From positions 1 to 24,632 of the IMG/VR virus record IMGVR_UViG_3300042569_003095: a stretch of 24,632 nucleotides of DNA. The stretch is one strand, 5' to 3'. A program made the position numbers and the translations under genes. Source of the DNA: a virus. Shown here in pieces: positions 1,186 through 18,863 of the stretch (its first letter is position 1; every line of letters begins with the position of its first letter). The notes under the pieces were generated by a model. That model was given only the letters and a program-made list of their open reading frames with translations, made no database searches and had not been told where the DNA came from.

Positions 1186-1203
1186 GATTATGGGTTTTCC
1201 CTG

Positions 1204-1219
1204 CTGTATGTAAACACAG
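1204..1219. promoter_or_regulatory. LexA-like SOS box
   Basis: CTGTATGTAAACACAG matches the beta/gammaproteobacterial LexA operator CTGT-N8-ACAG, with 5 of 8 central bases agreeing with the alternating AT core. It lies just upstream of the minus-strand gene at 889-1185, where it could repress that gene's promoter. No clear -35/-10 pair was fixed around it. Confidence 0.55.
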
Positions 1220-6647: not shown

Positions 6648-7442
6648 TCAGGCGGCGCAGATGGCTGCTTTTTGCTCGGGGGTGAGCAGGCCCTTGGCCT
6701 GCACGGTGGCGATGACTTCGGCGGCTGACTTCTTCCCGGCCGCGATGGCCTGGCGCCAGGCGGGCAGGTTCTTTTCAAACGACTCGGGGGGGTAAGGCGG
6801 CCGGGTGTCTTCTTGCTCGGCAGCTGGGGGCGGTGGCGGGCTGCCTACTTGGTCGCCTTGCTCGTTGCCTTCGCCGCCTTCGCCGTCATCGTCCTGGCCG
6901 CCTTCGGCCACGCCCGTGATGGCCTTGAGCGTGTAGCGCTGCAAGTAAGTGACGGTGCTGGCAATCTGCTGGATCGCGTTTTTCTTGCCCGAGGCATCAG
7001 GCGGGCCGCCCAGCTCGCAGGTTTCGCTGTGGCCCAGGGCGTGCTTGAGGATGCACGTCACGCTGACCCAGGTCGGCGTTTGCTTCACGTCCCAGCGGAA
7101 GGAGAGGCCGTGCTTGGAGAGCGCGGGGCCCACTGCGTCCACCACGTCGCTGAGCTCGGCGTGGCGGTAGCCCACTTCTTCGCCTTGCTTGGTGGTGTAG
7201 CCCACCAGCTTGGCCTTGCGCACCACGATGGGCTCAAACTTGAACGCGGCCAGCGCGGCATTGAAGGCGGCGCGGGCCTGGTCGGCTTGCCATTCGCGTT
7301 GCATGTTCAGCAACTCGCGCAGGTCGGCGGGGCTGATTCCGCGCTCCATTGCGGTGAGCATGATGCCGGCCGGGCTGCTGACGGCCAGGGCGTGGGTTTG
7401 CACGGCGGCAACGGCCGCGTGCTCTTGCTTGACGAGTTCCAT
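6648..7442 (-). CDS. erf: ERF-family single-strand annealing protein
   Basis: The predicted product is a 264-residue recombinase of the ERF superfamily (P22 Erf type), which anneals complementary single strands. Typical features are the N-terminal helix pair with AAFNAALAAFKFEPIVVRKA, then GYRHAELSDVVDAVGPALSKHG, VTCILKHALGHSET, and SGKKNAIQQIASTVTYLQRY, which is the family signature before the C-terminal part. Residues about 190-225 are an acidic, Gly- and Pro-rich linker (GGQDDDGEGGEG, then PPPPP), followed by a small helical tail. ATG 7442 has a GAGGAA site 7 bases upstream. It probably partners the adjacent YqaJ-type exonuclease. Confidence 0.88.
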   Translation of the reverse strand: MELVKQEHAAVAAVQTHALAVSSPAGIMLTAMERGISPADLRELLNMQREWQADQARAAFNAALAAFKFEPIVVRKAKLVGYTTKQGEEVGYRHAELSDVVDAVGPALSKHGLSFRWDVKQTPTWVSVTCILKHALGHSETCELGGPPDASGKKNAIQQIASTVTYLQRYTLKAITGVAEGGQDDDGEGGEGNEQGDQVGSPPPPPAAEQEDTRPPYPPESFEKNLPAWRQAIAAGKKSAAEVIATVQAKGLLTPEQKAAICAA

Positions 7443-7450
7443 TGGGTTCC

Positions 7451-7603
7451 TCAACGAAGGAAATGGGCCAGCGCCGAAGCGAAGGCCAGGCCGGCCAAGA
7501 TGGCGGCCAGAGTGGTCAGGATGGACGCGGCCGGGCCGCGCTTGTGAAGGTGCTCATGGCGGCGCATGGCCGCCTGAAGGTGCGGGGTGTCGTGGCACTT
7601 CAT
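7451..7603 (-). CDS. Tiny single-span membrane protein
   Basis: This 50-residue protein has a His- and Arg-rich N-terminal half (five His in residues 1-20, MRRHEHLHKRG) and one transmembrane helix at about 27-48 (ASILTTLAAILAGLAFASAL). The basic N-terminus predicts that it lies in the cytoplasm. It overlaps the upstream gene by ATGA (start 7603, upstream stop 7600) and ends 8 bases before the erf start. No known family is recognised. Confidence 0.55.
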   Translation of the reverse strand: MKCHDTPHLQAAMRRHEHLHKRGPAASILTTLAAILAGLAFASALAHFLR

Positions 7604-7758
7604 GCGAAGTACCGAATGACGTAAGCGATGCCGGTGACGGCCAGGGCAGCCGATGCCAGCAGCAGGGCTAGGCCCAGTTGCGGGCCTGCGCCTGATTCGC
7701 ATTGCTCAGGGTGTTCGCAGGCGGCTCGGCCTTGGCAGCAGTTGCCGGTGCAGTTCAT
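7600..7758 (-). CDS. Tiny cysteine-rich membrane protein
   Basis: This 52-residue protein has five cysteines in the first 20 residues (C3, C7, C8, C14, C20; MNCTGNCCQGRAACEHPEQC), then one transmembrane helix at about 28-46 (LGLALLLASAALAVTGIAY). The cysteine cluster could bind metal or form disulfides, depending on topology. The ATG at 7758 follows a GAGGG ribosome-binding site and overlaps the upstream stop (ATGA); its own stop overlaps the next start. A function cannot be assigned. Confidence 0.55.
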   Translation of the reverse strand: MNCTGNCCQGRAACEHPEQCESGAGPQLGLALLLASAALAVTGIAYVIRYFA

Positions 7759-7988
7759 ACGACCCTCACAGGCTTGACTCGCACGATGCCGGCCCAGGGG
7801 CACAGCTCCAGGGCTTCGCCCGTGGCGTCGGTGGCGCTTTCGGCGCTGATGTTGAAGCGCATGGTGAGCTCGTCGCTTTGCGCGAAGACCTCATAGAGCT
7901 TTGTGGGGGGCTTGATGGCCGCCAGTTCGGCGGCGCGCTGCTCGGGTGGCAGCAGATGGGCCAGGGCGGCCCGGATGGTGGGGTGCAT
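7755..7988 (-). CDS. Hypothetical phage protein, first gene of leftward operon
   Basis: This soluble 77-residue protein of unknown family has an N-terminal helical part (TIRAALAHLLPPEQRAAELA), then a strand-rich C-terminal half (KLYEVFAQSDELTMRFNIS and CPWAGIVRVKPVRVV). ATG 7988 was chosen because the promoter candidate at 8028-8057 lies within the longer open frame, which makes the upstream starts impossible in that transcript. The stop overlaps the next gene's start. Genes in this position in lambda-like phages are early host-takeover or regulatory genes; that is inference only. Confidence 0.55.
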   Translation of the reverse strand: MHPTIRAALAHLLPPEQRAAELAAIKPPTKLYEVFAQSDELTMRFNISAESATDATGEALELCPWAGIVRVKPVRVV

Positions 7989-8027: not shown

Positions 8028-8057
8028 ATAGTACGCTGAAAGGGATTCAGCATGCAA
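8028..8057 (-). promoter_or_regulatory. Leftward early promoter with internal operator-like repeat
   Basis: Reading the minus strand, TTGCAT (8057-8052) is followed by 18 bases and TACTAT (8033-8028). Between them lies a perfect inverted repeat GCTGAA-N5-TTCAGC (8035-8051). The promoter would drive the ten minus-strand genes from 7988 down to 3033. The repeat filling the spacer suggests a repressor site, different in sequence from the rightward operators. Confidence 0.5.
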
Positions 8058-8078: not shown

Positions 8079-8100
8079 AAAAAACCCGCCGAAGCGGGTT
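8079..8100 (-). terminator. Intrinsic terminator of the repressor operon
   Basis: On the minus strand AACCCGC-TTCG-GCGGGTT forms a 7-bp stem with a UUCG tetraloop, followed by TTTT and G. It lies 24 bases past the stop of the membrane-protein gene downstream of the repressor, so it ends the lysogenic transcript before the leftward early promoter. Confidence 0.8.
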
Positions 8101-8123: not shown

Positions 8124-8336
8124 TCAGGAGCAGGCGGCCATGAGGAGGAGGGCGCCGATGAGGGCGCCACGGCCGCTCCACTTGTTCTCATCTTGACCGC
8201 TGATGTGGGCCAGGAAGCTGCCGGCCACGGCGCCCAGCACCAGGCCGAGCAGGCCGAACAGCAGCCAGCTGCCGGTGGTGGCGGTGCCGCCCACGTCGCC
8301 CAGCTGGTCAACGGCCACGCCGAGCAGCTGGTTCAC
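8124..8336 (-). CDS. Small membrane protein cotranscribed with the repressor
   Basis: This 70-residue protein of unknown family starts at GTG 8336, which overlaps the repressor stop (GTGA), so its translation is coupled to the repressor. Residues about 22-44 (GSWLLFGLLGLVLGAVAGSF) are a glycine-rich transmembrane helix. A second hydrophobic stretch (about 58-69, ALIGALLLMAAC) ends at the C-terminus, and the loop between them is polar and basic. Because it is in the only operon expected to be on in a lysogen and is closed by its own terminator, a role in superinfection exclusion, host conversion or repressor modulation is plausible, but it is inferred from position only. Confidence 0.55.
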   Translation of the reverse strand: MNQLLGVAVDQLGDVGGTATTGSWLLFGLLGLVLGAVAGSFLAHISGQDENKWSGRGALIGALLLMAACS

Positions 8337-8941
8337 AGCAGGGCCACCACGCCCATGACGCGGCCAAGAATCTGCACGTCCTTCGTGACTTTGACGAGCT
8401 CGCCGTACTTGGGATTGAGCGCCACCAGGTAGAGCTGGCCGCTGTCACTGATGAGCTTGCGCACCACGGGCTGGAGCGCGCCGGGGTGTTTGGCCACGAC
8501 GAAATCGCCGGTCTTGGCCTCTGCATCGGGATTGACGGCCACATGGGAGCCAGGCGGTAGGCTGCGCTCGAAGCTGCTGGGCGACACCATCGAGTCGCCT
8601 TCGATCAAGAGCATGTAAGACCCCGCTGTACTGATGCGCGCGTCAAAAAACACGCGCTCTTGCACGGCCTCCAAGTCAATGCGGCCAATGTCTTCAGGCC
8701 GGATGACTGGCAGATAGCCGGCGCGCATGGCGCTGCCCATGTCCACGCTGTCCACCGAAAAGTAACCCTCGGGAAGCCCCAGGGCCTCCTCAAAACGAGT
8801 GCGTGCATTGAGTGCAAACGGCTTTTGCCCCGTCAGCAAGTTGGAGAGGTATTGCTTGGACAAGCCGGTGTCTTGCAGCACGGACACGCGCCCGCGCTTC
8901 TCCACGAGTTCCTTGAGCTTGTCTGTCGCTGACTTGGCCAT
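8333..8941 (-). CDS. cI: CI-like repressor, LexA/S24 self-cleaving type
   Basis: The 202-residue product has an N-terminal helix-turn-helix (residues 6-60; VSVLQDTGLSKQYLSNLLTG) and a C-terminal S24 peptidase domain. The cleavage site is A74-G75 in MRAGYLPV, the catalytic serine S117 in EGDSM, and the lysine K162 in VVRKL. RecA-stimulated self-cleavage, hence induction by DNA damage, is therefore expected. ATG 8941 has no ribosome-binding site, but a GATACT -10 element ends 7 bases before it, so the message may be leaderless, as with lambda cI from PRM. It probably binds the GTATCCCG-type operators at 8988-9005 and 15749-15766. The membrane-protein gene follows by overlap. Confidence 0.9.
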   Translation of the reverse strand: MAKSATDKLKELVEKRGRVSVLQDTGLSKQYLSNLLTGQKPFALNARTRFEEALGLPEGYFSVDSVDMGSAMRAGYLPVIRPEDIGRIDLEAVQERVFFDARISTAGSYMLLIEGDSMVSPSSFERSLPPGSHVAVNPDAEAKTGDFVVAKHPGALQPVVRKLISDSGQLYLVALNPKYGELVKVTKDVQILGRVMGVVALL

Positions 8942-8947
8942 TGGTCG

Positions 8948-8953
8948 AGTATC
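8948..8953 (-). promoter_or_regulatory. Candidate -10 element of the repressor promoter
   Basis: GATACT on the minus strand (8953-8948) is placed so that transcription would begin at or next to the A of the repressor ATG (8941), giving a leaderless mRNA. No good -35 is found at 16-18 bases, so activation by repressor bound at 8988-9005 would be needed, as at lambda PRM. Confidence 0.4.
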
Positions 8954-8973
8954 ACAACGGGCGTTCGCCTTTT

Positions 8974-9006
8974 GGGATTGACTTATGGAATCCCAATCGG
9001 GATACT
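8974..9006 (+). promoter_or_regulatory. Rightward early promoter overlapped by repressor operator
   Basis: TTGACT (8978-8983), 17 bases and GATACT (9001-9006) form a sigma-70 promoter for the rightward early genes. The spacer and -10 are covered by GAATCCCAATCGGGATAC (8988-9005), which differs from the perfect palindrome at 15749-15766 at only three positions. A further GGGATT half-site (8974-8979) pairs with AATCCC (8989-8994). Repressor bound here would block RNA polymerase. Confidence 0.7.
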
Positions 9007-9111
9007 GCCTCTTGCCGCGCAATGGCAGCTTCGGCCCTGAAAAGGAGCGAACGAACCGCATGCGCGGCCCAGCGGTGGTCTTCGCTGGCAACCCTTGAAC
9101 CCCGACGACTG

Positions 9112-9282
9112 ATGACATTCCACACTCCCCTGCCTGGCGCTTGGCCTGGTTTACCTGCGATTCCCATTCGCTTCTCCTTAGCGGGGTTTACCCGCTTGCA
9201 GCGCACTGTCTACCGACTTGCGCGCAAAGGCACGCAAAAGAAGCGGGCCCCTTTTGCAACGAGTAGGGGGGGTGCCTCTTGA
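9112..9282 (+). CDS. Possible small basic protein in the cI-cII interval
   Basis: This open frame from ATG 9112 would give 56 residues with a strongly basic second half (RLQRTVYRLARKGTQKKRAP). It lies where lambda-like phages carry cro or, on the other side, N. There is no helix-turn-helix, so it does not look like Cro. Third-position GC is lower than in neighbouring genes and no strong ribosome-binding site is present, so it may be non-coding leader. It contains the hairpin at 9180-9196. Confidence 0.25.
   Translation: MTFHTPLPGAWPGLPAIPIRFSLAGFTRLQRTVYRLARKGTQKKRAPFATSRGGAS
9169..9196 (+). promoter_or_regulatory. nut-like element (boxA-like plus 5-base-loop hairpin)
   Basis: CGCTTCTCCTTA (9169-9180) resembles a boxA. 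It is followed directly by AGCGGG-GTTTA-CCCGCT (9180-9196), a 6-bp stem with a 5-base loop, the size of lambda boxB. It lies in the roughly 320-base untranslated leader before the cII-like gene. No N protein is recognised, so this remains a structural resemblance. Confidence 0.35.
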
Positions 9283-9329
9283 GCGACGACCCAACGAGCT
9301 GGCCGGCGTTCAGCCGGGGAGGTGCCGCA

Positions 9330-9620
9330 ATGAGCAACGGGCGCGCCCATGAGATTCAAACGGCCATCCTGGGCCGCATGGCCGAGGTGGGCCAAAGCCA
9401 TGTGGCCGAGGTGGCCGGCGTGAGCGATGCCACGGTGAGCCGCTGGAAAGACGGTGCGCTGGAGCAGGCGGCGCGCATCTTGGCGGCGCTGGGCTTGAAG
9501 CTGGTGCCGCAAGACGCGCAGGTTCAGGAGCCGGCTTACATGGCCAGCCTGGAGCACCTGGCTTCGATGGCCCTGGCGGCCAAGCGAGCCGAGCGCAACA
9601 CGAACGGGGGCCGGCCATGA
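9330..9620 (+). CDS. cII: CII-like transcriptional regulator
   Basis: The product has 96 residues, close to the 97 of lambda CII. The helix-turn-helix lies at about 17-45 (GQSHVAEVAGVSDATVSRWK) followed by LEQAARILAALGLKLVP, which fits the CII family pattern; the C-terminal part is helical and basic. CII proteins activate promoters for the repressor and int to favour lysogeny. ATG 9330 was chosen because GGGGAGG lies 7 bases upstream; a TTG start at 9279 is less likely. Its stop overlaps the next start (ATGA), and it heads the rightward operon. Confidence 0.72.
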   Translation: MSNGRAHEIQTAILGRMAEVGQSHVAEVAGVSDATVSRWKDGALEQAARILAALGLKLVPQDAQVQEPAYMASLEHLASMALAAKRAERNTNGGRP

Positions 9621-9997
9621 GCGAAGTGAAGGTGATTCAGTTCATGCGCCCGAACGTGCGCCCGAACGAGGTGGAGCGCATCGAGCGCATGGCGCCGCCA
9701 GCCCCGCCGTGCTTTGCCTCCCATGCCGAATGGCAGGAGTACCTGGCCTGGTGCCTGGCCAGCGCCGAACCGGGCATGTTGCCGACCCGCAGCAGCACCG
9801 AGGCCGAGCCCGATGAGGCGGGCCGGCTGCACCGCCGCCGCTTGTTCAACGAGGGTTTGAGCTTCTGCAAAGACTGCGAGCCGGATTACCGGGCCCGCAT
9901 GGAGAAGGCGGTTCGCTGCCGGCCGTACTGGCTCGTTGCCCGCGAGTGGGACACCAGCAAGCACCCGCTGCTGACGGAGGAGCTGGCATGCGCTTGA
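9617..9997 (+). CDS. Conserved phage hypothetical protein
   Basis: The product has 126 residues. The C-terminal third has a FCKDCEPDYRARMEKAVRCRP block whose C84, C87 and C101 may form part of a small metal-binding site; this block is common in short proteins encoded near phage replication genes, but I cannot name a function. The N-terminal part is polar and proline-rich (RMAPPAPPC). Start 9617 overlaps the cII-like stop and its end overlaps the RusA-like gene by 10 bases. Confidence 0.65.
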   Translation: MSEVKVIQFMRPNVRPNEVERIERMAPPAPPCFASHAEWQEYLAWCLASAEPGMLPTRSSTEAEPDEAGRLHRRRLFNEGLSFCKDCEPDYRARMEKAVRCRPYWLVAREWDTSKHPLLTEELACA

Positions 9998-10329
9998 CGG
10001 CGAAGCTGCCCCTGCGCATTGAGAGCGTGGCCAACCTGCGCGAGCACTGGCGCCAGCGCGCCAAGCGCGCACAGATGCAGCGCGAGGCGGCGCACTGGGC
10101 GCTCAAGGGTAATGCGCAGCCTCCAGCCGGCCCGCTAACCGTGACGCTGACCCGCATTGGCCCGCGCCCGCTCGACACCGACAACCTGGCCGGGGGCTTC
10201 AAGGCCGTGCGCGATGGCGTGGCCGATTGGCTGATGGTGGATGACGGCAGCCCGCTGCTGACGTGGGTTTACGCCCAAGAGCGCGGCGCACCCAAGACCT
10301 ACGCATGTCGGATTGAGATAGCCCTATGA
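9988..10329 (+). CDS. rusA: RusA-like Holliday junction resolvase
   Basis: The product has 113 residues. RusA-type enzymes cut four-way DNA junctions symmetrically as dimers. Here the key acidic cluster is seen as PLDTDNLAGGFKAVRDG (DxDN) and VDDGSPLL (DD), with a strand-rich end TYACRIEIAL. The N-terminus (LPLRIESVANLREHWRQRAKR) matches the usual N/xxxxRxHW start of phage RusA-like proteins. ATG 9988 has GGAGGA just upstream and lies inside the end of the previous gene. With NinB and the HNH-like gene downstream it forms the nin-like recombination set of the operon. Confidence 0.72.
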   Translation: MRLTAKLPLRIESVANLREHWRQRAKRAQMQREAAHWALKGNAQPPAGPLTVTLTRIGPRPLDTDNLAGGFKAVRDGVADWLMVDDGSPLLTWVYAQERGAPKTYACRIEIAL

Positions 10330-10544
10330 CCAGCCCATTCTCCAAAGACTACAAGCCCCAGCTGGCGCCGCTCAAGGGCAATTCACGCGCCGAGAGCCGG
10401 ATGAAGCAAAGCCTGCGACGCACCGAGCTGGGCAATTCGTTCGACCGCCAGCCGCTGCACCTGACGAACACGCAGGCTGACATTACCAAGGCCGCAATCA
10501 TTCGCACGCCGAGCTGCATGCGGCCCAAGGAGCCGAGCGTATGA
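10326..10544 (+). CDS. Hypothetical phage protein
   Basis: This 72-residue basic protein (many Lys, Arg, Ser and Asn) has no known family. It shows no hydrophobic core long enough for a membrane span and looks partly disordered; the middle segment (SRMKQSLRRTELGNSFDRQP) is helical and basic, suggesting nucleic-acid contact. Its start overlaps the rusA-like stop and its end overlaps the next start (ATGA at both ends), which supports it as a translated gene. Confidence 0.6.
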   Translation: MTSPFSKDYKPQLAPLKGNSRAESRMKQSLRRTELGNSFDRQPLHLTNTQADITKAAIIRTPSCMRPKEPSV

Positions 10545-11056
10545 GCCGCAAACGCTGCAAGCGCAAGGTGTGGCCGCTGCTGGCCAGCCCCGTGGGGCAT
10601 GTGATCGCACGGGCCGCGCTGCTGGCCCCGGCTGCCGTGAAGGACATGGAGCTGCGCGCGCTGGAGGCCCTGGAGGACTTGGCCAAGGGCCGGGGCGCCG
10701 AGACTGGGTTTGACCTACTGAGCGACATAGCGAACCTGGCCGGCTGCCTGGCCCACGACCAGGCCGGGCTGGGGGTGCGCGTGGCCGCCGAGGGCCTTGA
10801 CCTGGCCGCCGCCAAGCAAGCGATTCGTGACGTGTGGGCGCGCTACGGCCGCACCGGAAAGATTGGCGCCACGGGCCCCGAGCTGGCCGTGCTGCGCGAC
10901 ACGGTGCGCTGCCTGATGGACACGCTGCCCTGCATCACCCAGGCGCAATTCGACAAGGCGGTGATCTACCTGAAAAACCGCTCTGAAACCGGCGAGTGCG
11001 AGGTGCTGAGCGCCCGCCCCGACCACACCCAGGCCGAGCTGGCCCTGGCCGCCTGA
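10541..11056 (+). CDS. Conserved phage hypothetical protein
   Basis: This 171-residue, largely helical protein begins RKRCKRKVWP, a start I associate with a family of unnamed phage proteins in Burkholderiales. Helices dominate 20-75 (KDMELRALEALEDLAKG) and 85-150. No catalytic motif, signal or membrane segment is visible. It is coupled by ATGA to the upstream gene, followed by 29 bases and then the next start. Role unknown; replication or recombination accessory by context. Confidence 0.65.
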   Translation: MSRKRCKRKVWPLLASPVGHVIARAALLAPAAVKDMELRALEALEDLAKGRGAETGFDLLSDIANLAGCLAHDQAGLGVRVAAEGLDLAAAKQAIRDVWARYGRTGKIGATGPELAVLRDTVRCLMDTLPCITQAQFDKAVIYLKNRSETGECEVLSARPDHTQAELALAA

Positions 11057-11085
11057 CCCCTTTCCCCCCGACGAAGGAAAACCCG

Positions 11086-11427
11086 ATGGAAACAACCCTG
11101 AACCTTGCGGCCGCCGAACAAGCGGCCGAGCTTGGCGCGCAGCTGGCTGCGAACCATGCCGACAACGAAAACCCGAGCTGGACGGAGCGCGCCCTGGCGT
11201 ACTTCGTGGCCTATGCCAAGGCCCGGCCGACGAGCGCGTTCCTGACCGAAGACGTGCGCTTTGCGGCGAGCCTGGACGGCCTGCCTCCGCCGCCTGACCG
11301 CCGCGCCTGGGGCTACATCCCCAAGGCCGCGCAGGCCCAGGGCGTGATTGCTCACGCGGGCTATGCGCGCCAGAAAGCTGTGAACTGCCACAGCTCCCCG
11401 AAAAGCCTTTGGAGGCTTGCGGCATGA
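11086..11427 (+). CDS. Hypothetical phage protein near replication genes
   Basis: The product has 113 residues. The central region (WTERALAYFVAYAKARPTSA, FLTEDVRFAASLDGLPPPPD, RRAWGYIPKAAQAQGVI) and the ending with CHSSPKSLWRL resemble a small conserved phage family that looks like a compact winged-helix fold and often lies just upstream of replication initiators; the name and function are uncertain. ATG 11086 has an AAGGA site at good spacing. The stop overlaps the DUF1376 gene start. Confidence 0.6.
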   Translation: METTLNLAAAEQAAELGAQLAANHADNENPSWTERALAYFVAYAKARPTSAFLTEDVRFAASLDGLPPPPDRRAWGYIPKAAQAQGVIAHAGYARQKAVNCHSSPKSLWRLAA

Positions 11428-12224
11428 ACTACTACCCCTTCCATGTAGGCGACTACCTGAGTGCCACCCGGCACTTGAGCTGGGAGGAGGACGCGGCCTT
11501 TCGCCGGCTGCTGGACACCTACTACACAACGGAGAAGCCCATACCGGCAGAGCTTCGGCAAGCATGCCGGCTGGTTGTTGCGCAGACCGAGGGCCAGCGC
11601 GAGGCGGTGGCGTCGGTGCTGGCCGAGTTCTTTGAGCTGACGCCGGATGGCTGGATCAACAAGCGGGCCGATGGCGAGATTCATGCCATGCGCGACAAGC
11701 AGCAGAAGCAGCGCGACAAGGCGAACAAGCGCTGGGGCATTGCCGGCAGTGGTGCGCCGGTAATGCCACGGCATGAGGAAAGCGATGCCGTGGCATCAAA
11801 AACGGATGCCGATGCAATGCCACCAACACCAACACCAACACCAACACCAACACCAACACCAACACCAGAAGAAGAAACCAAAGACAAGGCTTCGCGGCGC
11901 TCAGCCCGAGAAGCTGACTTCGAGCCGCCCGATTGGGTTGACCCCCAGGCATGGGGCGATTACGCGGCGATGCGGGCCAAGATCAAAAAGCCGATGACGG
12001 CCGCCGCCAAACGGCTTGCAGTCTCCAAGCTTGCCGAGCTGCGCGACGAGGGCCATGACCCTTCGGACGTGCTGTGCCAAAGCACGTTCAACAGCTGGCA
12101 GGGGCTTTTCCGGCCGCGCAGCGATGAGAGCCCGGTGAAGGGCAGGGCGCCGCAAGGCACGCACCACGGTTTTGAGGGCCGCAACTACCGGGCAGGAGTG
12201 AACGATGACGGAAGCCTTGAGTAA
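11424..12224 (+). CDS. DUF1376-type replication protein
   Basis: The product has 266 residues. Residues 1-100 carry the YdaU/DUF1376 pattern: MNYYPFHVGDYLSATRHLSW, EEDAAFRRLLDTYY, then PIPAE, typical of phage and prophage replication proteins located before a DnaC-like loader. After a charged segment follows a PT-dipeptide repeat (about 134-148) and EEE, acting as a hinge to a C-terminal helical domain with WVDPQAWGDYAAMRAKIKKP and FNSWQGLFRP. By analogy with lambda O/P pairs it probably binds the phage origin and hands DNA to the loader. GGAGG precedes ATG 11424. It overlaps the loader gene by 20 bases. Confidence 0.75.
   Translation: MNYYPFHVGDYLSATRHLSWEEDAAFRRLLDTYYTTEKPIPAELRQACRLVVAQTEGQREAVASVLAEFFELTPDGWINKRADGEIHAMRDKQQKQRDKANKRWGIAGSGAPVMPRHEESDAVASKTDADAMPPTPTPTPTPTPTPTPEEETKDKASRRSAREADFEPPDWVDPQAWGDYAAMRAKIKKPMTAAAKRLAVSKLAELRDEGHDPSDVLCQSTFNSWQGLFRPRSDESPVKGRAPQGTHHGFEGRNYRAGVNDDGSLE
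11823..11867 (+). repeat. (CCAACA)7 hexanucleotide repeat inside a gene
   Basis: Seven CCAACA units followed by CCA encode the Pro-Thr hinge of the replication protein. Copy-number changes would lengthen or shorten the hinge by two residues without breaking the frame. Confidence 0.9.
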
Positions 12225-13002
12225 GGTCTTGCCGGTGCGCCTTGAGGCGACGCCGGCCGTGTGCGCAACCCACGGCGCTTACTCCGCCAAGGGCGTTCGA
12301 TTCCGCGATGGCCGCGAGGTGCGCGACAGCTGCCCAAAGTGCCAGGCCGATGCAGCTCAGGCCGAACGCGCGGCCGAGAAGGCTGAGCGAGAGCGCCGCC
12401 AGGTTGCAGCGCTGGAGGCCCAGCTGGGCGCGACTGGCGTGCCGGCCCGTTTCTTGGGGCGCGGTTTCGATGGGTTCAAGGCCACGACCCCCGAGCAGCT
12501 GCACGCGCTGACGGTGTGCCGTGACTTCGCCGAGGATTTTGAGGCGCACCGCAGGCGTGGCTCCGTGCTGATCTTGAGCGGGAGGCCTGGCACGGGGAAG
12601 ACGCACCTGGCCACGGCCATGCTGCGCCAAATTCTGCCCGCCAACGTGGGGCTTTACCTGACGGCGATGGGGCTAATTCGGGCCGTGCGTGACACCTGGC
12701 GGCGCGATAGCGCGCGCAGCGAGAGCGAGGTTCTTGATAGCTTGGCCAAGGTGCCGCTGCTGGTGCTGGACGAGGTGGGCATGCAGTACGGCACGGATGG
12801 CGAGGCGACGGTGCTGTTCGACGTGCTGGACAGGCGGTATCGGGACATGCAGCCCAGCGTGCTGCTGACCAACAGCGACCGCGAGGGCCTGCGTAAGTGC
12901 CTGGGCGACCGCCTGGCCGACCGGCTTCGGGAAACCGCGCGCCTTGTGCCGTTTGAGTGGGACAGCTATCGCGCCCAAGCCCGCAAGGAGGCCGCGCCAT
13001 GA
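12205..13002 (+). CDS. dnaC: DnaC-like helicase loader (AAA+ ATPase)
   Basis: The predicted 265-residue product is a phage loader that would place the host DnaB helicase at the phage origin. An N-terminal zinc-ribbon-like segment (C20, H23, C43, C46) is followed by a charged helix that may contact the helicase. The AAA+ core has Walker A GRPGTGKT (126-133), Walker B LLVLDE (185-190) and sensor 1 LLTNSD (220-225). A GDRLADRLRE segment matches the arginine-finger/box VII region of DnaC/IstB proteins. ATG 12205 has AGGAG 8 bases upstream and starts within the end of the DUF1376 gene, a usual arrangement for this pair. Confidence 0.9.
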   Translation: MTEALSKVLPVRLEATPAVCATHGAYSAKGVRFRDGREVRDSCPKCQADAAQAERAAEKAERERRQVAALEAQLGATGVPARFLGRGFDGFKATTPEQLHALTVCRDFAEDFEAHRRRGSVLILSGRPGTGKTHLATAMLRQILPANVGLYLTAMGLIRAVRDTWRRDSARSESEVLDSLAKVPLLVLDEVGMQYGTDGEATVLFDVLDRRYRDMQPSVLLTNSDREGLRKCLGDRLADRLRETARLVPFEWDSYRAQARKEAAP

Positions 13003-13373
13003 TGATCGACTTCACCAAGGCGACGCCTGACGAGCGCGCGGCGCTGCTGGGGCGGGAGTTCAGGGGCGCTCTGGTGCTGGAGGCGGGTGCCGACGAAAGC
13101 GGGCAGTGGATGACGCGCCTGATGATGGACGGCCAGGCCGTGACGCTGATTGGCAACCCCAGCGATGCGCTGCGCACCTACCTTGCAGGGCAAGAGCCGG
13201 GGAGGGCAAGAGCCGGGGAGGGCAACGGCATGAGCGCGCGCCGCCAACTTCGCCAGCTTCGGGCCAAGGCCTGGGCCAATGGCGTGCTGGATCGCGTGCG
13301 CAATGGCGACAAGACACCGAGCCAGGCCCAAATCCTGCGCGCGTTGGTGCTAACCGGGGACTTGCGGCGATGA
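12999..13373 (+). CDS. Fused hypothetical protein created by a 16-bp duplication
   Basis: The product has 124 residues as the frame stands. The first 65 or so (MMIDFTKATPDERAALLGRE, then VTLIGNPSDALRTYLAGQ) look like a small alpha/beta protein; the last 47 (MSARRQLRQLRAKAWANGVL and on) look like an independent basic protein. The two are joined across two tandem copies of a 16-bp unit (13194-13225). With one copy, the first gene would stop at a TGA overlapping the ATG of the second (ATGA), the normal junction in this operon. The second part has its own GGGGAGGG site and ATG at 13230, so it may still be translated alone. Functions unknown. Confidence 0.6.
   Translation: MMIDFTKATPDERAALLGREFRGALVLEAGADESGQWMTRLMMDGQAVTLIGNPSDALRTYLAGQEPGRARAGEGNGMSARRQLRQLRAKAWANGVLDRVRNGDKTPSQAQILRALVLTGDLRR
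13194..13225 (+). repeat. 16-bp tandem duplication (two copies)
   Basis: The unit GAGCCGGGGAGGGCAA occurs at 13194-13209 and 13210-13225 without any spacer. The length is not a multiple of three, so it shifts the frame, and the unit includes the ribosome-binding site for the ATG at 13230. Confidence 0.9.
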
Positions 13374-13858
13374 GCTTCGTGACGCGCGAGCTCCGGCTTT
13401 GGGGCTACGAGCAGGGCAAGCGGCTGATTTGGCAGGTTCTGCCCGACATGGCCCAGGCCCTGCGCATGGGGGAGTGCCTGGAAATGGTGGTTCGGCCGAT
13501 GCGGCGCAGCTGCCCGCAGAACGCGAAGCTGCACGCGATGTTTGGCGACATTGCCGCCAGCGGCTGGACTTTCATGGGCCAGCGGCTGGACAGGGAGGAC
13601 GTGAAGCGGCTGATGGTGGACGCCTTCCACCGCGCGACCCGGGCGGATTCCGACATTGGGCCGCTTTGGCGGAGCTTTGGGCAGATTCGCACGATGCCGA
13701 GCCTGGACGGCACGGGCGTGGTGACGCTGGGCATGCCGACCCGCAAGTTCCCGAAGGCCCTGGCCAGCGCCATGATTGACTGGCTGAGCGCTTGGATGAT
13801 TGAACAAGACATTGACCTGGCCGATGGCGAGGCCAGTGAATGGCGAGAGGCAGCATGA
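13370..13858 (+). CDS. ninB: NinB-family recombination protein
   Basis: The 162-residue product contains the NinB signature: RSCPQNAKLHAMFGDIAASG, then DREDVKRLMVDAF, LDGTGVVTLGMPTRKFPK and a C-terminal WLSAWMIEQDIDLAD. Lambda NinB (Orf) has 146 residues and is a single-strand-binding recombination mediator that can replace RecF, RecO and RecR; the same role is expected here. Start 13370 overlaps the previous stop and its end overlaps the next start. It complements the YqaJ/ERF/SSB block on the other strand. Confidence 0.87.
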   Translation: MSFVTRELRLWGYEQGKRLIWQVLPDMAQALRMGECLEMVVRPMRRSCPQNAKLHAMFGDIAASGWTFMGQRLDREDVKRLMVDAFHRATRADSDIGPLWRSFGQIRTMPSLDGTGVVTLGMPTRKFPKALASAMIDWLSAWMIEQDIDLADGEASEWREAA

Positions 13859-14217
13859 CGGTGAGCTTGATTTGGACGGGCGCGGCCAAGGTGGGCCTGC
13901 TGCGCAAGGGAGAGCAGCAACGTAAGCGCGTGCGCGCCGCGCTGGCCAAGCGAGAAGCTCTTGAGCTGGAGCGCGTGCACCGCATCAGGGTTGGGTATCT
14001 CTGGAACTCCCGCCTGAAAGAACTGCCCTCGCGTTTGGGCGATGCGACGCGCCAAGCTGGGCTGACTCCCGTAGCGGTGGCGACACGGAATGACCCGCTG
14101 GACATGCTCGACCATGTGATTCTCAAGGTCAAGAACCGGCGCAAGACCACCAGCCTGGAGCTGCTGCGCAAGGTGCCGGGCGTTGCTTACGCCGAGTGGA
14201 TGGACGGGCCGGCATGA
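13855..14217 (+). CDS. Hypothetical basic phage protein
   Basis: This 120-residue strongly basic protein is rich in Arg, Lys and Leu, with helical N-terminal two thirds (LLRKGEQQRKRVRAALAKRE). A hydrophobic segment DMLDHVILKVKNRR and a C-terminal LELLRKVPGVAYAEWMDG follow. No family is recognised. The charge suggests nucleic-acid binding. ATGA overlaps link it to ninB upstream and to the HNH-like gene downstream, in the position lambda uses for its nin genes. Confidence 0.62.
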   Translation: MTVSLIWTGAAKVGLLRKGEQQRKRVRAALAKREALELERVHRIRVGYLWNSRLKELPSRLGDATRQAGLTPVAVATRNDPLDMLDHVILKVKNRRKTTSLELLRKVPGVAYAEWMDGPA

Positions 14218-14474
14218 ACAACAAGCTGACCGACGCCGAGCGCAAGCACCTGGCCAATGTCAAAGAGCTGCCGTGCTCTGTGTGCGATGCGCCAGGCCCG
14301 AGCGACGCGCACCACGTTTCTCAACATCGGCAATACACCTGCGTGGCGCTGTGCAAAGACTGCCACCAGGGTTCGATTCTTGGCTGGCACGGCCAGCGCC
14401 GGGCCTGGGCGGTGCGAAAGATGGACGAGCTGGACGCGCTGAATGTGACGCTGCGCCGGCTGTTTACCGCGTGA
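14214..14474 (+). CDS. HNH-like / Ref-like zinc-binding protein
   Basis: The product has 86 residues. The pattern is a compact treble-clef zinc fold: CSVC (C21, C24), AHHVSQHRQY (H33, H34), CKDCHQG (C47, C50, H51) and GWHG (H59). This resembles the HNH core of phage Ref/NinX-type recombination nucleases, but the asparagine of a full HNH motif is not evident, so nuclease activity is uncertain. Start 14214 overlaps the previous stop. After it comes a 56-base gap before the Q-like gene. Confidence 0.6.
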   Translation: MNNKLTDAERKHLANVKELPCSVCDAPGPSDAHHVSQHRQYTCVALCKDCHQGSILGWHGQRRAWAVRKMDELDALNVTLRRLFTA

Positions 14475-14530
14475 GAGCGCAAACCGATGCCGCCGCTTTG
14501 CCATGCTTCGGCGCCCTGACGAAAGGACAC

Positions 14531-14950
14531 ATGCAGACAAGCTCACATGAGAGGCGCGCACTGCGCCAGGCCGACCCGAGCGCTGACTGGCTGACCATCG
14601 ACCCGGATCAACGCGAGATAGACACCCAGCTAGCCAACTGGGCTCGCTGGGTTGCGGGCCGCCCGGCTTCAGTTACCTGCCCCATGTTCAGGCTCATGCG
14701 CAGCAACTTTGCGCGGGCCAGTTATGGGGCCCCAACAGCCATGGCCAGCGTGGATTCGCAGGCGGCGATGCGGGTTGAGAAGTCCATGCGGTACTTGCCC
14801 GAGCGAGCGCGCGAGCTTCTGAAAGGGTTTTACGTTCTGGAGGCGCACCCGAGGCGCCTGTGCCGCTTCTTGGGAATCAACATCCGAGACTTGGCTGGCG
14901 AGCTCAATGCTGCGCGGCGCATGCTGATGAACATCCTGCGGAGGCACTGA
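14531..14950 (+). CDS. Q-like late antiterminator candidate
   Basis: The product has 139 residues. It begins with a polar N-terminus and contains DTQLANWARWVAGRP, then a segment that looks like a helix-turn-helix: VDSQAAMRVEKSMRYLPERA, ELLKGFYVLE, RLCRFLGINIRDLAG. This sigma-like helical C-terminus and the position after the nin-like genes are those of phage Q antiterminators, although sequence identity to lambda Q is not evident. It may let RNA polymerase read through the terminator at 18829-18863. ATG 14531 follows AAAGGA, and the frame is open upstream only as a shadow of the HNH-like gene. Confidence 0.5.
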   Translation: MQTSSHERRALRQADPSADWLTIDPDQREIDTQLANWARWVAGRPASVTCPMFRLMRSNFARASYGAPTAMASVDSQAAMRVEKSMRYLPERARELLKGFYVLEAHPRRLCRFLGINIRDLAGELNAARRMLMNILRRH

Positions 14951-15201
14951 TGGCCGGGCAAGCGGTGCAGCTGCGCGACGGCAGCACGGTGGACAGCTGG
15001 AGCGAGGAATGGAGAGCGGAGTGCGCCGCCCTGGAGACTGAGGCGCTGCGCATTGCCCAGCTGCCGCGCTTCGAGCAGCGAGCCGGTGCGGTGGCGAACC
15101 ACGCGAAGCAGTACGGCCAGGCCTGGGCCGACCGGCTCAAGGCGCGATTGACGGCGCTGCGCCAGGCGCGGCTGGAGCAACAAGCAAAGGCAGCAGCATG
15201 A
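14950..15201 (+). CDS. Small conserved phage protein (DUF7696-like)
   Basis: The 83-residue, entirely helical product includes SWSEEWRAECAALETEALRI, RAGAVANHAKQYGQAWADRL, and a Lys/Ala-rich end. The EWRxEC start and alternating helices resemble a family of unnamed small phage proteins (DUF7696), assigned with low certainty. It is coupled to the Q-like gene by TGATG and to the RyR-domain gene by ATGA. Confidence 0.55.
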   Translation: MAGQAVQLRDGSTVDSWSEEWRAECAALETEALRIAQLPRFEQRAGAVANHAKQYGQAWADRLKARLTALRQARLEQQAKAAA

Positions 15202-15689
15202 GCCGAGACAGACAGATTGCCCTCGCTTTGCGCCAGTGCCTGGCGTCAATCGAGCGGCTGCTGGTGGCGATGGATGCCGCAAACGCGGCGCCGTTTGAGC
15301 CGGCGAAGGCTCGAATTGATAAACCCGAAAAGGAAAGCAGCATGAGTCATCCACTTGATCGAATTGCCCGCGTTTGCCACGAAGTAAACCGGGCTTACTG
15401 CCAAGCCCTGGGCGACAACAGCCAGGCCGCTTGGGAGGAGGCGCCCGAGTGGCAGCGCGTCAGCGCCCGCATGGGGGTAGACCTTCACTTGTCCGGCAAC
15501 TTTGGCCCCGAGGCCAGCCACATCGCATGGATGCGCCAGAAGCAAGAGGAGGGGTGGGTTTACGGCCCGGTCAAAGACCCCGAACTGAAGCAGCACCCTT
15601 GCATGTTGCCGTTCGATGAGCTTCCGCCCGAGCAGCAGGCCAAAGACTTCATTTTTCGCGCCATCGTCCACGCACTCCAGCAAGCGTGA
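15198..15689 (+). CDS. RyR-domain phage protein
   Basis: The product has 163 residues. Residues 52-160 contain a RyR (ryanodine-receptor repeat) domain, as found in some phage and bacterial proteins: RIARVCHEVNRAYCQALGD, then EAPEWQRVSARMGVDLH, WMRQKQEEGWVYGPVKDPEL, and PPEQQAKDFIFRAIVHAL. The bacterial domain is proposed to bind ligands or proteins; its phage role is unknown. An internal ATG at 15342 with an AAAGGAAAG site starts exactly where the domain begins, so either a longer protein or a fused pair of genes is possible; the N-terminal 48 residues look like a separate small helical protein. It ends the first rightward operon. Confidence 0.72.
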   Translation: MSRDRQIALALRQCLASIERLLVAMDAANAAPFEPAKARIDKPEKESSMSHPLDRIARVCHEVNRAYCQALGDNSQAAWEEAPEWQRVSARMGVDLHLSGNFGPEASHIAWMRQKQEEGWVYGPVKDPELKQHPCMLPFDELPPEQQAKDFIFRAIVHALQQA

Positions 15690-15738
15690 GCCGGGGCGCC
15701 GAGCTGCCCCAGTTCGTCAATCTTTAGTCGGTGAGTGC

Positions 15739-15767
15739 TTGACCGAGGGTATCCCGTTCGGGATACT
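15739..15767 (+). promoter_or_regulatory. Second operator-overlapped promoter (rdgC operon)
   Basis: TTGACC (15739-15744), 17 bases and GATACT (15762-15767) form a promoter. Its spacer and -10 are covered by the perfect 18-bp palindrome GTATCCCGTTCGGGATAC (15749-15766). The architecture equals that of 8978-9006, with operator and hexamers in the same register. It would drive rdgC and the genes behind it. Confidence 0.75.
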
Positions 15768-15803: not shown

Positions 15804-16709
15804 ATGTTCAAAAATCTGACCGTTTACGCGCTGCCAGAGGCCTGCCGATTTCATGGCGGCTTGCCCCTGAATCTGAAGCTGGATGCGATGCCATTCCGGC
15901 CCTGCGGCCCGACCGAGCCCGAGAGCTGGGGCTTTGTGACGCCCCACGCCCACGCCAACGGCATGAGCGCACCGCTGGGCGATGGTCGCACGGTGCTTTG
16001 CGTGCGCCGCCAGCAGCGCAAAGTGCCAGCCGAAACCCTGCGCAAGCGTGTGGACGAGCTGGCCAAGACCTTCGAGCAGGAGACTGGGCGCAAAGCTGGC
16101 GCCAAGCGCCGCCGCGAGCTCAAGGACGAGGCCTTGCTGGAGCTGCTGCCGCAAGCATTCACCAAGGACACCACCGCCCTGGTGCTGATTGAGTGCCATC
16201 GTGACCGCCTGGTGATTGAAAGCACCAGCAACGGCATGCTGGATGGTGTGCTAACCACCTTGTCGAAGTCCATCCCTGGCTTCGTGGCAATGCCCTGGAA
16301 CACTGTGGACAGCCCAGCGAGCTGGATGGCCAGGCGGCTGATGGAGTGCGACGGTGGCGGTTTCACGCTGGACGTGGGCAGTGCCCTGGTGCTGGAGAAC
16401 GACATGGGCCGCCGCGTGAGCTGGGCCAATGCCGACCTGGGCGCCGATGATGTGCAGGGCAACCTGATGGCCGGCGCTGCTGTGCTGCGCATGGGCTTGG
16501 AGTTCAGTGGCCGCACCGAGTTTGCGCTGACCGAGAACGGCCAGCTGAAGGGCGTGGTGATGGACTTGGCGGCGATGGCGCAACCTGACGGCGACGCCGA
16601 GGGCTGGCGCACCGATGCCGAGCTGGTGACGGCCGAGCTGGCGTGCATCTTGGACGAGCTGGAGAGCGAGCTGGGCGGCCGCATGGCGCCGCTGGGGGTT
16701 GAGGCATGA
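15804..16709 (+). CDS. rdgC: RdgC recombination-associated protein
   Basis: The product has 301 residues, close to the normal length of RdgC. The N-terminus MFKNLTVYALPEACRFHGGL, the RPCGPTEPESWGFVTP block, a KRRRELKDEALLELLPQAF segment and the later FSGRTEFALTENGQLKGVVM region all match the family. RdgC forms a ring on double-stranded DNA and limits RecA filament formation. In a phage it may tune recombination or RecA-dependent repressor cleavage. ATG 15804 was chosen because the longer frame would begin inside the promoter. The upstream operator palindrome suggests control by the phage repressor. Confidence 0.88.
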   Translation: MFKNLTVYALPEACRFHGGLPLNLKLDAMPFRPCGPTEPESWGFVTPHAHANGMSAPLGDGRTVLCVRRQQRKVPAETLRKRVDELAKTFEQETGRKAGAKRRRELKDEALLELLPQAFTKDTTALVLIECHRDRLVIESTSNGMLDGVLTTLSKSIPGFVAMPWNTVDSPASWMARRLMECDGGGFTLDVGSALVLENDMGRRVSWANADLGADDVQGNLMAGAAVLRMGLEFSGRTEFALTENGQLKGVVMDLAAMAQPDGDAEGWRTDAELVTAELACILDELESELGGRMAPLGVEA

Positions 16710-17278
16710 GCACCACGAAGCTAGCCGATGCGCTGCCGCCGCTGCCCGACGTTGAATTGGCGGAGATTCGCAACGACTCCATTAACAAGACAAGGCTTTC
16801 TGAAACGGGCGCGCATTACTGGGGCTCTAACTGGCGCGAGGTGCGCAAGCTCTACACCGCCGAACAGATGCACGCCTACGCCGTCGCTGCCGTGGCCCAG
16901 GCAGAGGCAAAGCCTGCGCCGGCACAGTGGGCAGATGAATTGGCCCGCGAGCGGCTGTTACGTGGATCGGCTGAGCGGCAGCTTGAGCACTGCCGGGACC
17001 AACTGGCCCGCGCCAGAAACGACGCACGCCGCGAGTTGCTAGACCAGGGTTGGGTGCGTAGACAAGACCCCAGCGCACCCGCAGCGCCTGCCCCTGAGCA
17101 GCAGGCCGAGCCCTACACGTACGAGCGCCAAAAAGCAGCGTTTGAGGTATGGGCCAAGCGCCTTGGCCTGCGTCTTGATCGGTGGCGCATCCATCCCGAC
17201 TTTTGCGATCAAGCGGAGGCCGAGACATGGGCTGCGTGGCAAGCCTGGAAAGACAGCCCAGGCCACTGCGTCGATTGA
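16706..17278 (+). CDS. Modular phage hypothetical protein
   Basis: The product has 190 residues. Residues 40-60 hold the YTAEQMHAYAVAAVAQAEAK pattern common in small modular phage proteins of unknown function. A helical segment (ARERLLRGSAERQLEHCRDQ), a Pro/Ala-rich linker (about 124-135, APAAPAPEQQ), and a C-terminal AFEVWAKRLGLRL ... TWAAWQAWKDS module follow. The linkers are encoded by DNA repeats that recur in the next gene. Its start overlaps the rdgC stop (ATGA), so it shares the repressor-controlled transcript. Confidence 0.62.
   Translation: MSTTKLADALPPLPDVELAEIRNDSINKTRLSETGAHYWGSNWREVRKLYTAEQMHAYAVAAVAQAEAKPAPAQWADELARERLLRGSAERQLEHCRDQLARARNDARRELLDQGWVRRQDPSAPAAPAPEQQAEPYTYERQKAAFEVWAKRLGLRLDRWRIHPDFCDQAEAETWAAWQAWKDSPGHCVD
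16898..16920 (+). repeat. Linker repeat type A, copy 1
   Basis: This copy contains GAGGCAAAGCCTGCGCC (16904-16920) preceded by CAGGCA and encodes an AQAEAKPAP linker. Copies occur at 17944-17964 and 18322-18338, in the next gene. Confidence 0.7.
17075..17099 (+). repeat. Linker repeat type B, copy 1
   Basis: The core GCACCCGCAGCGCCTGC encodes an APAAPAP linker. Further copies are at 17773-17789, 18067-18087 and 18454-18478; the copy here and the one at 18454 agree over all 25 bases. Confidence 0.8.
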
Positions 17279-17382: not shown

Positions 17383-18666
17383 ATGACAGCAATTGACCTA
17401 AATGACCGCGCTTTGCTCCAGTCTCTGCGCGCTGACGCAGAGGCGCAGCTCGCCTGCCCAGGGTGCTCCGAGGTCTGGGCCGACGCCTACCGCGATATTG
17501 CGCGGGCACTAGATCGGCTGGACGCGATGTGGGCGCGGGTAGAGATTGGGCAGGCGCACATCGTTGCGTCACAAGGGCTTGGCGAGCCTATTGCAGCCAC
17601 CCCAGCGCCTGCCCCAGCTGTCAAGGATTCCTTGACAACTGCGCCTGCTGAGCCGGTGGCGTGGGTTGACGAACGGGCCATCGCATGGCTGCAAGGCCGC
17701 AATCCTGCTGCGCACATCACAACCCCGTTGCAAGCCGGCAAGTCTTTCGAGCGCCCGATGCCACTCTACGCCGCACCCGCAGCGCCTGCTGTGCAAGTCG
17801 TGGTCGAGCGTGAGCGCGTATGGATCAAGCGCGGCGTGCAGTCGTTCATGCTGGCCTATGAGGCCGAGACGGATGCAGAACGCGAGTGGTTCGCGGGTCA
17901 GCTTCGCGCCGCTCTTTCCGGCTTTACACCTGATGTAAAGACCCAGGCAGAGGCAAGGCCTGCCGACCTTGCACAGACCATCCGAGGCATCACGGAGGCA
18001 TACCGTGGCACAGATTGCGGCAAGTGCGCAGAGTCCATTGGTGACCGCTTGATTAATGTCCTAGCCGCACCCGCAGCGCCTGCCCCCGAACCATTGATGA
18101 CTGGCTACTTGGTGCGCAACCGAAATCGGGTGGCGGAAGCCGTGGCGGTTTTCGGCCCTGCCAAAGACTTTGGCTACCTTTGGAGCTACATGCACGGCGC
18201 TGATGACATTGAGGCCACCGAAGCGTGCGCGCACCTTGAGGTCGTTCGCCTGTACTCAGCACCCGTAGCGCGCAAGCCCTACCCGAGCTATGCCGAAGAA
18301 GAAGCTACGCGGAAAACTCAGGAGGCAAAGCCTGCGCCTGCCGTGGTCGCGGCCTCAATGCAAGAGCTGGGGCAGCAGTCGTTCATGCACTTGTGGATGA
18401 GCTACCTAGACAAGAAAGCCGAGGTCGAGGACTTGCGCGAACGGCTTGCCGCAGCACCCGCAGCGCCTGCCCCTGAGCCGCTGACCATTCCGGAAGTCTG
18501 CGACCTAGTGGACGAAGCTGGGCTTGACTGGCAAAAGGGATGGCCCGTCAGTCCTTCGGAGTGCAACCGCTTTTTGCAACTTGCCACGTTGGTTCAGAAG
18601 GCATGCCTGAACAAGTGGGGCATCGCAGCCAGCAAGGGAGAGCAAGCCCGCCCCTCCGCAGATTGA
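17383..18666 (+). CDS. Multi-module phage protein joined by repeat-encoded linkers
   Basis: This 427-residue protein of unknown function is built from at least four short modules separated by Ala/Pro linkers. Residues about 1-65 are helical (RALLQSLRADAEAQL); 84-125 hold PVAWVDERAIAWLQG and LQAGKSFERPMPLYA, a module resembling ones in Ea22-like phage proteins; 135-185 begin VQVVVERERVWIKRG; 235-295 run from MTGYLVRNRNRVAEAVAVFG to a HLEVVRLYSAPV end; the last begins EPLTIPEVCDLVDEAGLDW. The linkers (APAAPAPEP, EAKPAPA) coincide with DNA repeats. ATG 17383 has AAAGG upstream. Such mosaic proteins often occupy non-essential early regions. Confidence 0.62.
   Translation: MTAIDLNDRALLQSLRADAEAQLACPGCSEVWADAYRDIARALDRLDAMWARVEIGQAHIVASQGLGEPIAATPAPAPAVKDSLTTAPAEPVAWVDERAIAWLQGRNPAAHITTPLQAGKSFERPMPLYAAPAAPAVQVVVERERVWIKRGVQSFMLAYEAETDAEREWFAGQLRAALSGFTPDVKTQAEARPADLAQTIRGITEAYRGTDCGKCAESIGDRLINVLAAPAAPAPEPLMTGYLVRNRNRVAEAVAVFGPAKDFGYLWSYMHGADDIEATEACAHLEVVRLYSAPVARKPYPSYAEEEATRKTQEAKPAPAVVAASMQELGQQSFMHLWMSYLDKKAEVEDLRERLAAAPAAPAPEPLTIPEVCDLVDEAGLDWQKGWPVSPSECNRFLQLATLVQKACLNKWGIAASKGEQARPSAD
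17773..17789 (+). repeat. Linker repeat type B, copy 2
   Basis: GCACCCGCAGCGCCTGC at a module boundary (about residue 131). It diverges after the core, so only 17 bases are shared. Confidence 0.7.
17944..17964 (+). repeat. Linker repeat type A, copy 2
   Basis: CAGGCAGAGGCAAGGCCTGCC differs from copy 1 at one position over the shared part and again marks a module boundary (about residue 188). Confidence 0.6.
18067..18087 (+). repeat. Linker repeat type B, copy 3
   Basis: GCACCCGCAGCGCCTGCCCCC precedes the EPLMTGYLV module (about residue 229). Confidence 0.75.
18322..18338 (+). repeat. Linker repeat type A, copy 3
   Basis: GAGGCAAAGCCTGCGCC matches copy 1 exactly over 17 bases, at about residue 314. 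Confidence 0.65.
18454..18478 (+). repeat. Linker repeat type B, copy 4
   Basis: Identical over 25 bases to the copy in the neighbouring gene (17075-17099). It precedes the final EPLTIPEV module (about residue 358). Confidence 0.8.
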
Positions 18667-18707: not shown

Positions 18708-18716
18708 TGCTATGCT
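18708..18716 (+). promoter_or_regulatory. Candidate late promoter (extended -10)
   Basis: TGCTATGCT is an extended -10 element (TGn plus TATGCT) with no evident -35, about 110 bases before a terminator and 165 before the holin gene. This mirrors lambda pR', where Q acts on polymerase paused in the leader before the terminator tR'. Confidence 0.4.
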
Positions 18717-18828
18717 GCGCGCGTCAATTGCTGATTCCGGCTCAAGCCAGGTAAACGATGCGGCCCCGCAGGGAGTCGCGTCTCTGGCGCCGGTAGGTGT
18801 TTGGCGTCCTTTCGTCGGGACTGAACTG

Positions 18829-18863
18829 GCCCCCTTGGTGCAAACCTTGGGGGCTTTTTCTTT
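18829..18863 (+). terminator. Intrinsic terminator before lysis genes (tR'-like)
   Basis: GCCCCC (18829-18834) pairs with GGGGGC (18849-18854). An inner GGT-GCAA-ACC hairpin lies beyond a TT/TT internal loop, and TTTTTCTTTT follows. It lies between the candidate late promoter and the holin start, so late genes would need antitermination. Confidence 0.7.

Follow-up and report, generated by a model that had tools for sequence, protein, structure and literature searches.

A remote promoter ahead of an rdgC unit shares the operator architecture of PR and is probably under the same CI-like repressor in a lambda-like phage

The window, which is the whole stretch of DNA analysed here (an IMG/VR virus record of 24,632 bases), contains two promoters 6.7 kb apart that share one promoter-operator architecture. 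We judge it likely that one CI-like repressor silences both PR (promoter P1) and the remote promoter P2, which heads the unit rdgC-16706-17383, through operators placed over the -10 elements, with autoregulation and leftward control exerted at PRM and PL. P2 most likely serves the rdgC unit as a distant promoter controlled by CI; it is probably functional and of a kind already known from phage P1. The two promoters and their operators are located as follows.

8978..9006, plus strand: promoter P1 (PR), -35 TTGACT at 8978-8983, 17-nt spacer, -10 GATACT at 9001-9006
15739..15767, plus strand: promoter P2, -35 TTGACC at 15739-15744, 17-nt spacer, -10 GATACT at 15762-15767
8988..9005, plus strand: operator at promoter P1, GAATCCCAATCGGGATAC, 13 of 14 half-site letters
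15749..15766, plus strand: operator at promoter P2, GTATCCCGTTCGGGATAC, 14 of 14 half-site letters

Both 18-bp operators lie in identical register, each made up of the final 13 bases of the spacer and the GATAC of the -10, and they differ from one another at 3 of 18 positions. Seven of nine positions pair in the P1 operator. The initial annotation had described two TTGAC(T/C)-17-GATACT promoters with 18-bp operators at the same positions, and had called 15749-15766 a perfect palindrome. Both promoters are indeed present in the same register, and the 8-bp arms at P2 pair fully around a central TT. The first unit had been started at 8974; the unit is real, but its true -35 begins 4 bases later, at 8978. 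At 8974-8978 there is an extra half-site, GGGAT, which precedes the matching half-site in the P1 operator by 25 bp, and P2 is without a second half-site upstream.

The promoter-operator pair is a real, non-chance feature. At a stringency of 9/12 hexamer matches there are three sigma70-like matches on both strands of the whole window, two of which are P1 and P2. A first-order Markov model predicts 0.005 sites per window that differ from the P1 operator at no more than 3 positions, and beyond the two operators the whole window contains none. The complete architecture, TTGAC-N7-ATCCC-N4-GGGATACT, did not occur in 10,000 simulated windows. We also scored the window for the 14 half-site letters of GTATCCC-N4-GGGATAC, obtaining 14 for the P2 operator, 13 for the P1 operator and 10 for three sites, two of which are in regulatory positions; scores of 13 or 14 of 14 were absent from 469 kb of unrelated phage loci. 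The possibility that P2 arose as a long duplication of P1 was considered and rejected, the flanks being unlike (by eye) outside the operator and hexamers.

P2 lies between an early operon and the lysis genes, in a region with the following features.

14531..14950, plus strand: candidate Q-like antiterminator, sigma region 4-like (phrog_79, 7.3e-5; weak sigma-factor match)
15198-15689: RyR-domain protein, between the Q-like gene and the gap containing promoter P2
15804..16709, plus strand: rdgC, first gene of the P2 transcript (Pfam PF04381, 2.2e-52; phrog_724; NCBIfam RdgC subfamily, 4.2e-53)
16706..17278, plus strand: second gene of the P2 unit, no convincing family
17383..18666, plus strand: third gene of the P2 unit, no family
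18708..18716, plus strand: candidate late promoter, predicted from an extended -10, TGCTATGCT
18828..18855, plus strand: tR'-like intrinsic terminator, -22.4 kcal/mol, z -3.75, followed by TTTTTCTTTTC

The promoter sits in a 114-bp gap and its -10 ends 36 bp before rdgC, the product of which has a full-length RdgC domain (PF04381 over residues 2-292 of 301), with NCBIfam scores below the curated cut-offs. A defence-family search of the genes in the unit was empty. To the right of P1 the gene order is CII-like, RusA-like, primosomal protein, DnaC-like loader, NinB and Q-like. The rdgC block has the Q-like gene to its left and a strong terminator to its right, beyond which lie the lysis genes; the lysis block runs from 18881, after a 214-bp gap, and the terminases come next. 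Read-through from P1 could reach rdgC anyway, which, like the three differences between the operators and the missing second half-site at P2, counts against control of the unit by CI at P2.

P2 could instead be the late promoter, equivalent to pR', where Q, from the gene just before it, would load and take polymerase through rdgC to the lysis and head genes and where CI would silence late as well as early transcription directly. It does follow the Q-like gene, no other strong sigma70 match occurs from 9006 to the terminases, and the rdgC, lysis and terminase genes are all on one strand. However, the 214-bp gap ahead of the lysis genes has its own extended -10 and a strong tR'-like terminator in the usual pR'-tR' layout, rdgC begins about 30 nt past the P2 start so that no leader is left, and the assignment of Q is weak (7e-5). 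We therefore regard a late role for P2 as unlikely. Since the elements at 18708-18716 and 18828-18855 look like a late promoter of lambda type distinct from P2, P2 more likely drives the accessory block between Q and lysis.

The repressor gene and the region around it have the following features.

8333..8941, minus strand: CI-like repressor of 202 aa, N-terminal HTH and C-terminal S24 peptidase
8948..8956, minus strand: candidate PRM, predicted from an extended -10, TGTGATACT
8949..8966, minus strand: weaker candidate operator over PRM, 10 of 14 letters
8028..8057, minus strand: candidate PL, TTGCAT-18-TACTAT, a weak predicted promoter (7/12)
8031..8048, minus strand: weaker candidate operator at PL, GAATCCCTTTCAGCGTAC, 10 of 14 letters
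8083..8100, minus strand: intrinsic terminator of the cI transcript, just ahead of PL
9224..9237, minus strand: PRE-like CII direct repeat, TTGCGTGCCTTTGC, pointing at cI
9330..9620, plus strand: CII-like regulator (Pfam PF05269, 3.5e-7; phrog_725, 8.3e-19)

The CI-like repressor matches Pfam PF00717 (5.5e-15) and the transcriptional repressors of phrog_4 (6.6e-20), and its C-terminal half matches the C-terminal domain of lambda CI in the PDB (2.6e-12). Together with the HTH and the S24 self-cleavage domain of lambda-type immunity, it has a putative cleavage site at A74-G75, Ser117 (in GDSM) and Lys162, and so appears to have the parts expected for SOS (RecA-stimulated) self-cleavage. Such self-cleavage is established for lambda CI and LexA. 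The locus resembles lambda in its S24 CI, divergent PRM and PR, CII-like gene, likely PL, tR'-like element and weaker site over PRM. Beside cI, the operator at 8988-9005 lies within the divergent promoter P1. Set against the tandem operators of OR and OL, there is one strong site at PR, with the half-site 25 bp upstream, and there are the 10/14 candidates at PRM and PL.

The predicted start from the candidate PRM is the A of the cI ATG (8941), which would give a leaderless mRNA; lambda PRM likewise yields one. The candidate operator there keeps the register, its terminal GATAC and the following T making the -10. The candidate PL reads into 7755-7988, erf (6648-7454) and a recE-like gene (4910-6634), and the left half-site of its operator is that of P1. 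A 10/14 site has a chance of about 0.014 of falling in the PL gap and about 0.007 in the PRM gap, gaps picked after the sites had been seen. The PRM and PL sites are only suggestive, as chance alone would give about 3.6 sites with this score in each window. The regulon likely consists of PL, PRM, PR and the remote P2. The initial annotation had placed rdgC and two further genes on a second transcript within a shared repressor regulon, and this is still the best-supported reading; its limitation to two sites is probably incorrect, as the same half-sites recur in weaker form over the cI promoter and the leftward promoter. One operator adjoins the repressor gene and the weaker sites are where a lambda-like repressor should act, an arrangement that supports control by CI.

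It is also conceivable that the operators bind another protein, either Cro-like or a host regulator, with CI not the main ligand. Binding of CI is a prediction from the sites, and the first operon does encode a CII-like protein. Unlike in lambda, no Cro was recognised, on reading the listed ORFs before the CII-like gene together with their Pfam and PHROG matches. Against this, one site abuts cI in the standard PR position, and a separate TTGC-type direct repeat is available for CII at 9224-9237. CII-family activators use direct TTGC repeats; these are expected 2.8 times per window by chance, and the position and strand of this one fit. We consider a main ligand other than CI very unlikely. A reading of the P2 palindrome as an RNA hairpin that terminates or attenuates the early operon, with a coincidental promoter match, has next to no probability: the RNA does fold (-22.1 kcal/mol, z -2.06), but the stem has no U-tract after it, the half-sites match those of P1 in the same register inside a -35/-10 pair, and the chance estimate for the architecture is very low.

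Under control by CI, repressor dimers would occupy the operators over the -10 of both sigma70 promoters, perhaps the palindrome at P2 more tightly, as the initial annotation proposed, and exclude RNA polymerase. In a lysogen, the early rightward operon from PR would be off and the remote rdgC-16706-17383 unit would be off separately, and the weaker PRM and PL sites would probably provide autoregulation and leftward control, as in lambda. P2 would need an operator to itself, since a promoter of such strength at this place would otherwise be leaky in a lysogen. Upon DNA damage, RecA would induce the repressor to cleave itself at A74-G75 and the operators would be released, whereupon P1, P2 and PL would fire together; with these promoters firing together, RdgC would be made at once, with no wait for polymerase to cross the 6.7 kb early operon. 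If binding is confirmed, the repressor of a lambda-like phage reaches a separate accessory transcript, and the accessory block gains silence in the lysogen and immediate induction, independent of read-through from PR.

The CI of lambda is confined to OL and OR, whereas here, at the level of sequence, a further operator (15749-15766) lies 6.7 kb downstream, past Q. The initial annotation had stated that lambda-like phages do not usually carry a downstream promoter of this type; this is true of lambda itself, but phage P1 offers a close precedent. In the phage P1 record, the C1 operator Odmt (former Op68) is annotated at the promoter Pdmt of uhr-hrdC-dmt, hrdC belongs to the RdgC family, and C1 operators are also annotated elsewhere, Olpa among them. 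With hrdC under Odmt, there is a precedent for remote control of an rdgC-family gene by a repressor. As in phage P1, with its dispersed C1 operators, the lysogenic repressor of the window would govern an RdgC-family transcript from a promoter far from its own gene, here as judged from the DNA. The C1 operators are 17-bp sites, many per genome, and Odmt is just upstream of the Pdmt -35, which it touches. In contrast, the window sites are few, palindromic and overlap the -10, and the repressor is an S24 CI-like protein.

Most of the other phages inspected have rdgC as an internal gene of an operon. Upstream of rdgC there is a gap of at most 28 bp, or an overlap, in 11 of 13 other rdgC phages (F116, PCA1, PdC23, D279, KLER1-1, MACPNOA1, ST2-1pr, PA8, JK004, K250 and phage P1), a comparison in which the gap alone was examined in most; the gaps in MW202426 and SP069 are 73 bp and 157 bp. 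The comparison counts in favour of the CI-controlled reading of P2, which lies in a 114-bp gap.

Distal repressor sites of other kinds are also known. The CI of coliphage 186 has among the promoters it represses pB, which serves late control and lies outside the switch. Distal binding sites are used by this CI in regulation (PMC8053113), but it is an unrelated oligomeric repressor, and what it controls at a distance is a target other than rdgC. In mycobacteriophages, the repressor sites away from the main switch are many dispersed stoperators (PMC9283540). Stoperators are numerous, asymmetric, mostly off promoters and stop elongation; the window instead has two strong palindromes, both on promoters, of which one is remote. 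A group of unrelated IMG/VR phages (L074-L077) has the same half-sites and spacing, TATCCC-N4-GGGATA, over TTGACA-17-GATACT next to an HTH repressor gene, which speaks for the reading of the window sites as repressor operators. Their operators are in tandem, with the second site 25 bp upstream, the same spacing as that of the extra half-site at P1. They differ in having another HTH repressor gene and in that both operator clusters flank a roughly 1-kb repressor cassette; no remote operator was found in these records.

We searched for relatives of the repressor and found none in the viral or genome contig collections searched, from which records very near the window may be excluded; in phages the identity was only about 30%. 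Among 200 genomes, one prophage repressor matched at 32%, with an ordinary-looking small switch. The collections searched likewise contained no RdgC or DnaC relatives with the same layout, no close relative of the whole locus and no relative with the same operator pair. Without a relative that has the same repressor, the operator pair cannot be shown to covary, and since no phage relative with the same pair was found, we infer repressor binding from the sites themselves. De novo searching of related loci for repeated palindromes gave no comparable remote pair, only chance-like pairs or sites close together. Two sets of matches were set aside: 69 viral matches to TATCCCGNNCGGGATA, among them many copies of one recurring context, do not share the promoter architecture, and one pattern match was a chance match in a bacterial chromosome.

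Lambda RexA, a structural relative of RdgC, biases the lambda switch, and E. coli RdgC lowers RecA-dependent cleavage of LexA (PMC11077077). The relation of RexA to RdgC and the effect of RdgC on LexA cleavage suggest a feedback role for RdgC. Made only after cleavage of CI, it might damp the RecA coprotease as a delayed negative feedback on induction, a scheme that would recur in phage P1 (hrdC under C1) and in lambda RexA; we put this forward by analogy and think it decidedly improbable. If control of P2 by CI is true, this phage and phage P1, with different repressors, each put an rdgC-family gene under direct repressor control, and two such phages would allow a test of whether RdgC modulates RecA during induction.

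No tRNA was found in the window that could place the host. The relatives of DnaC in Burkholderia phages and in an Undibacterium prophage suggest a betaproteobacterium.

The GATACT -10 element lies within the operator both in the window and in L074-L077, a phage group unrelated to the window in which an HTH repressor cassette of roughly 1 kb is flanked at both ends by tandem TATCCC-N4-GGGATA operators. Within the window, inspection of the ORFs between PR and the CII-like gene (9007-9330) gave no recognisable Cro; this interval contains a small arginine-rich ORF. The top-scoring sigma70-like match of the window lies to the left of the integrase gene, and a RyR-domain gene immediately precedes P2, the promoter ahead of rdgC.

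1187-1214, minus strand: sigma70-like match, TTTACA-16-CATAAT (10/12)
15198-15689: phage protein with RyR (ryanodine receptor) domain, PF02026

Repeated sequences were also observed on other contigs. TATCCCGCACGGGATA or its reverse complement occurs eight times on a single 44.7-kb contig (IMGVR_UViG_3300037870_000089; loci L030 and L005), with several copies immediately 5' of ribosome-binding sites, and looks like a dispersed regulatory palindrome. In three related contigs, two copies of ATGTAACGTTACA, spaced by ~207 bp upstream of dnaC-like genes, are candidate operator or origin repeats.

L030:5536-10587: TATCCCGCACGGGATA copies, example span
L085:9359-9588, with equivalent positions in L086 and L087: ATGTAACGTTACA pair
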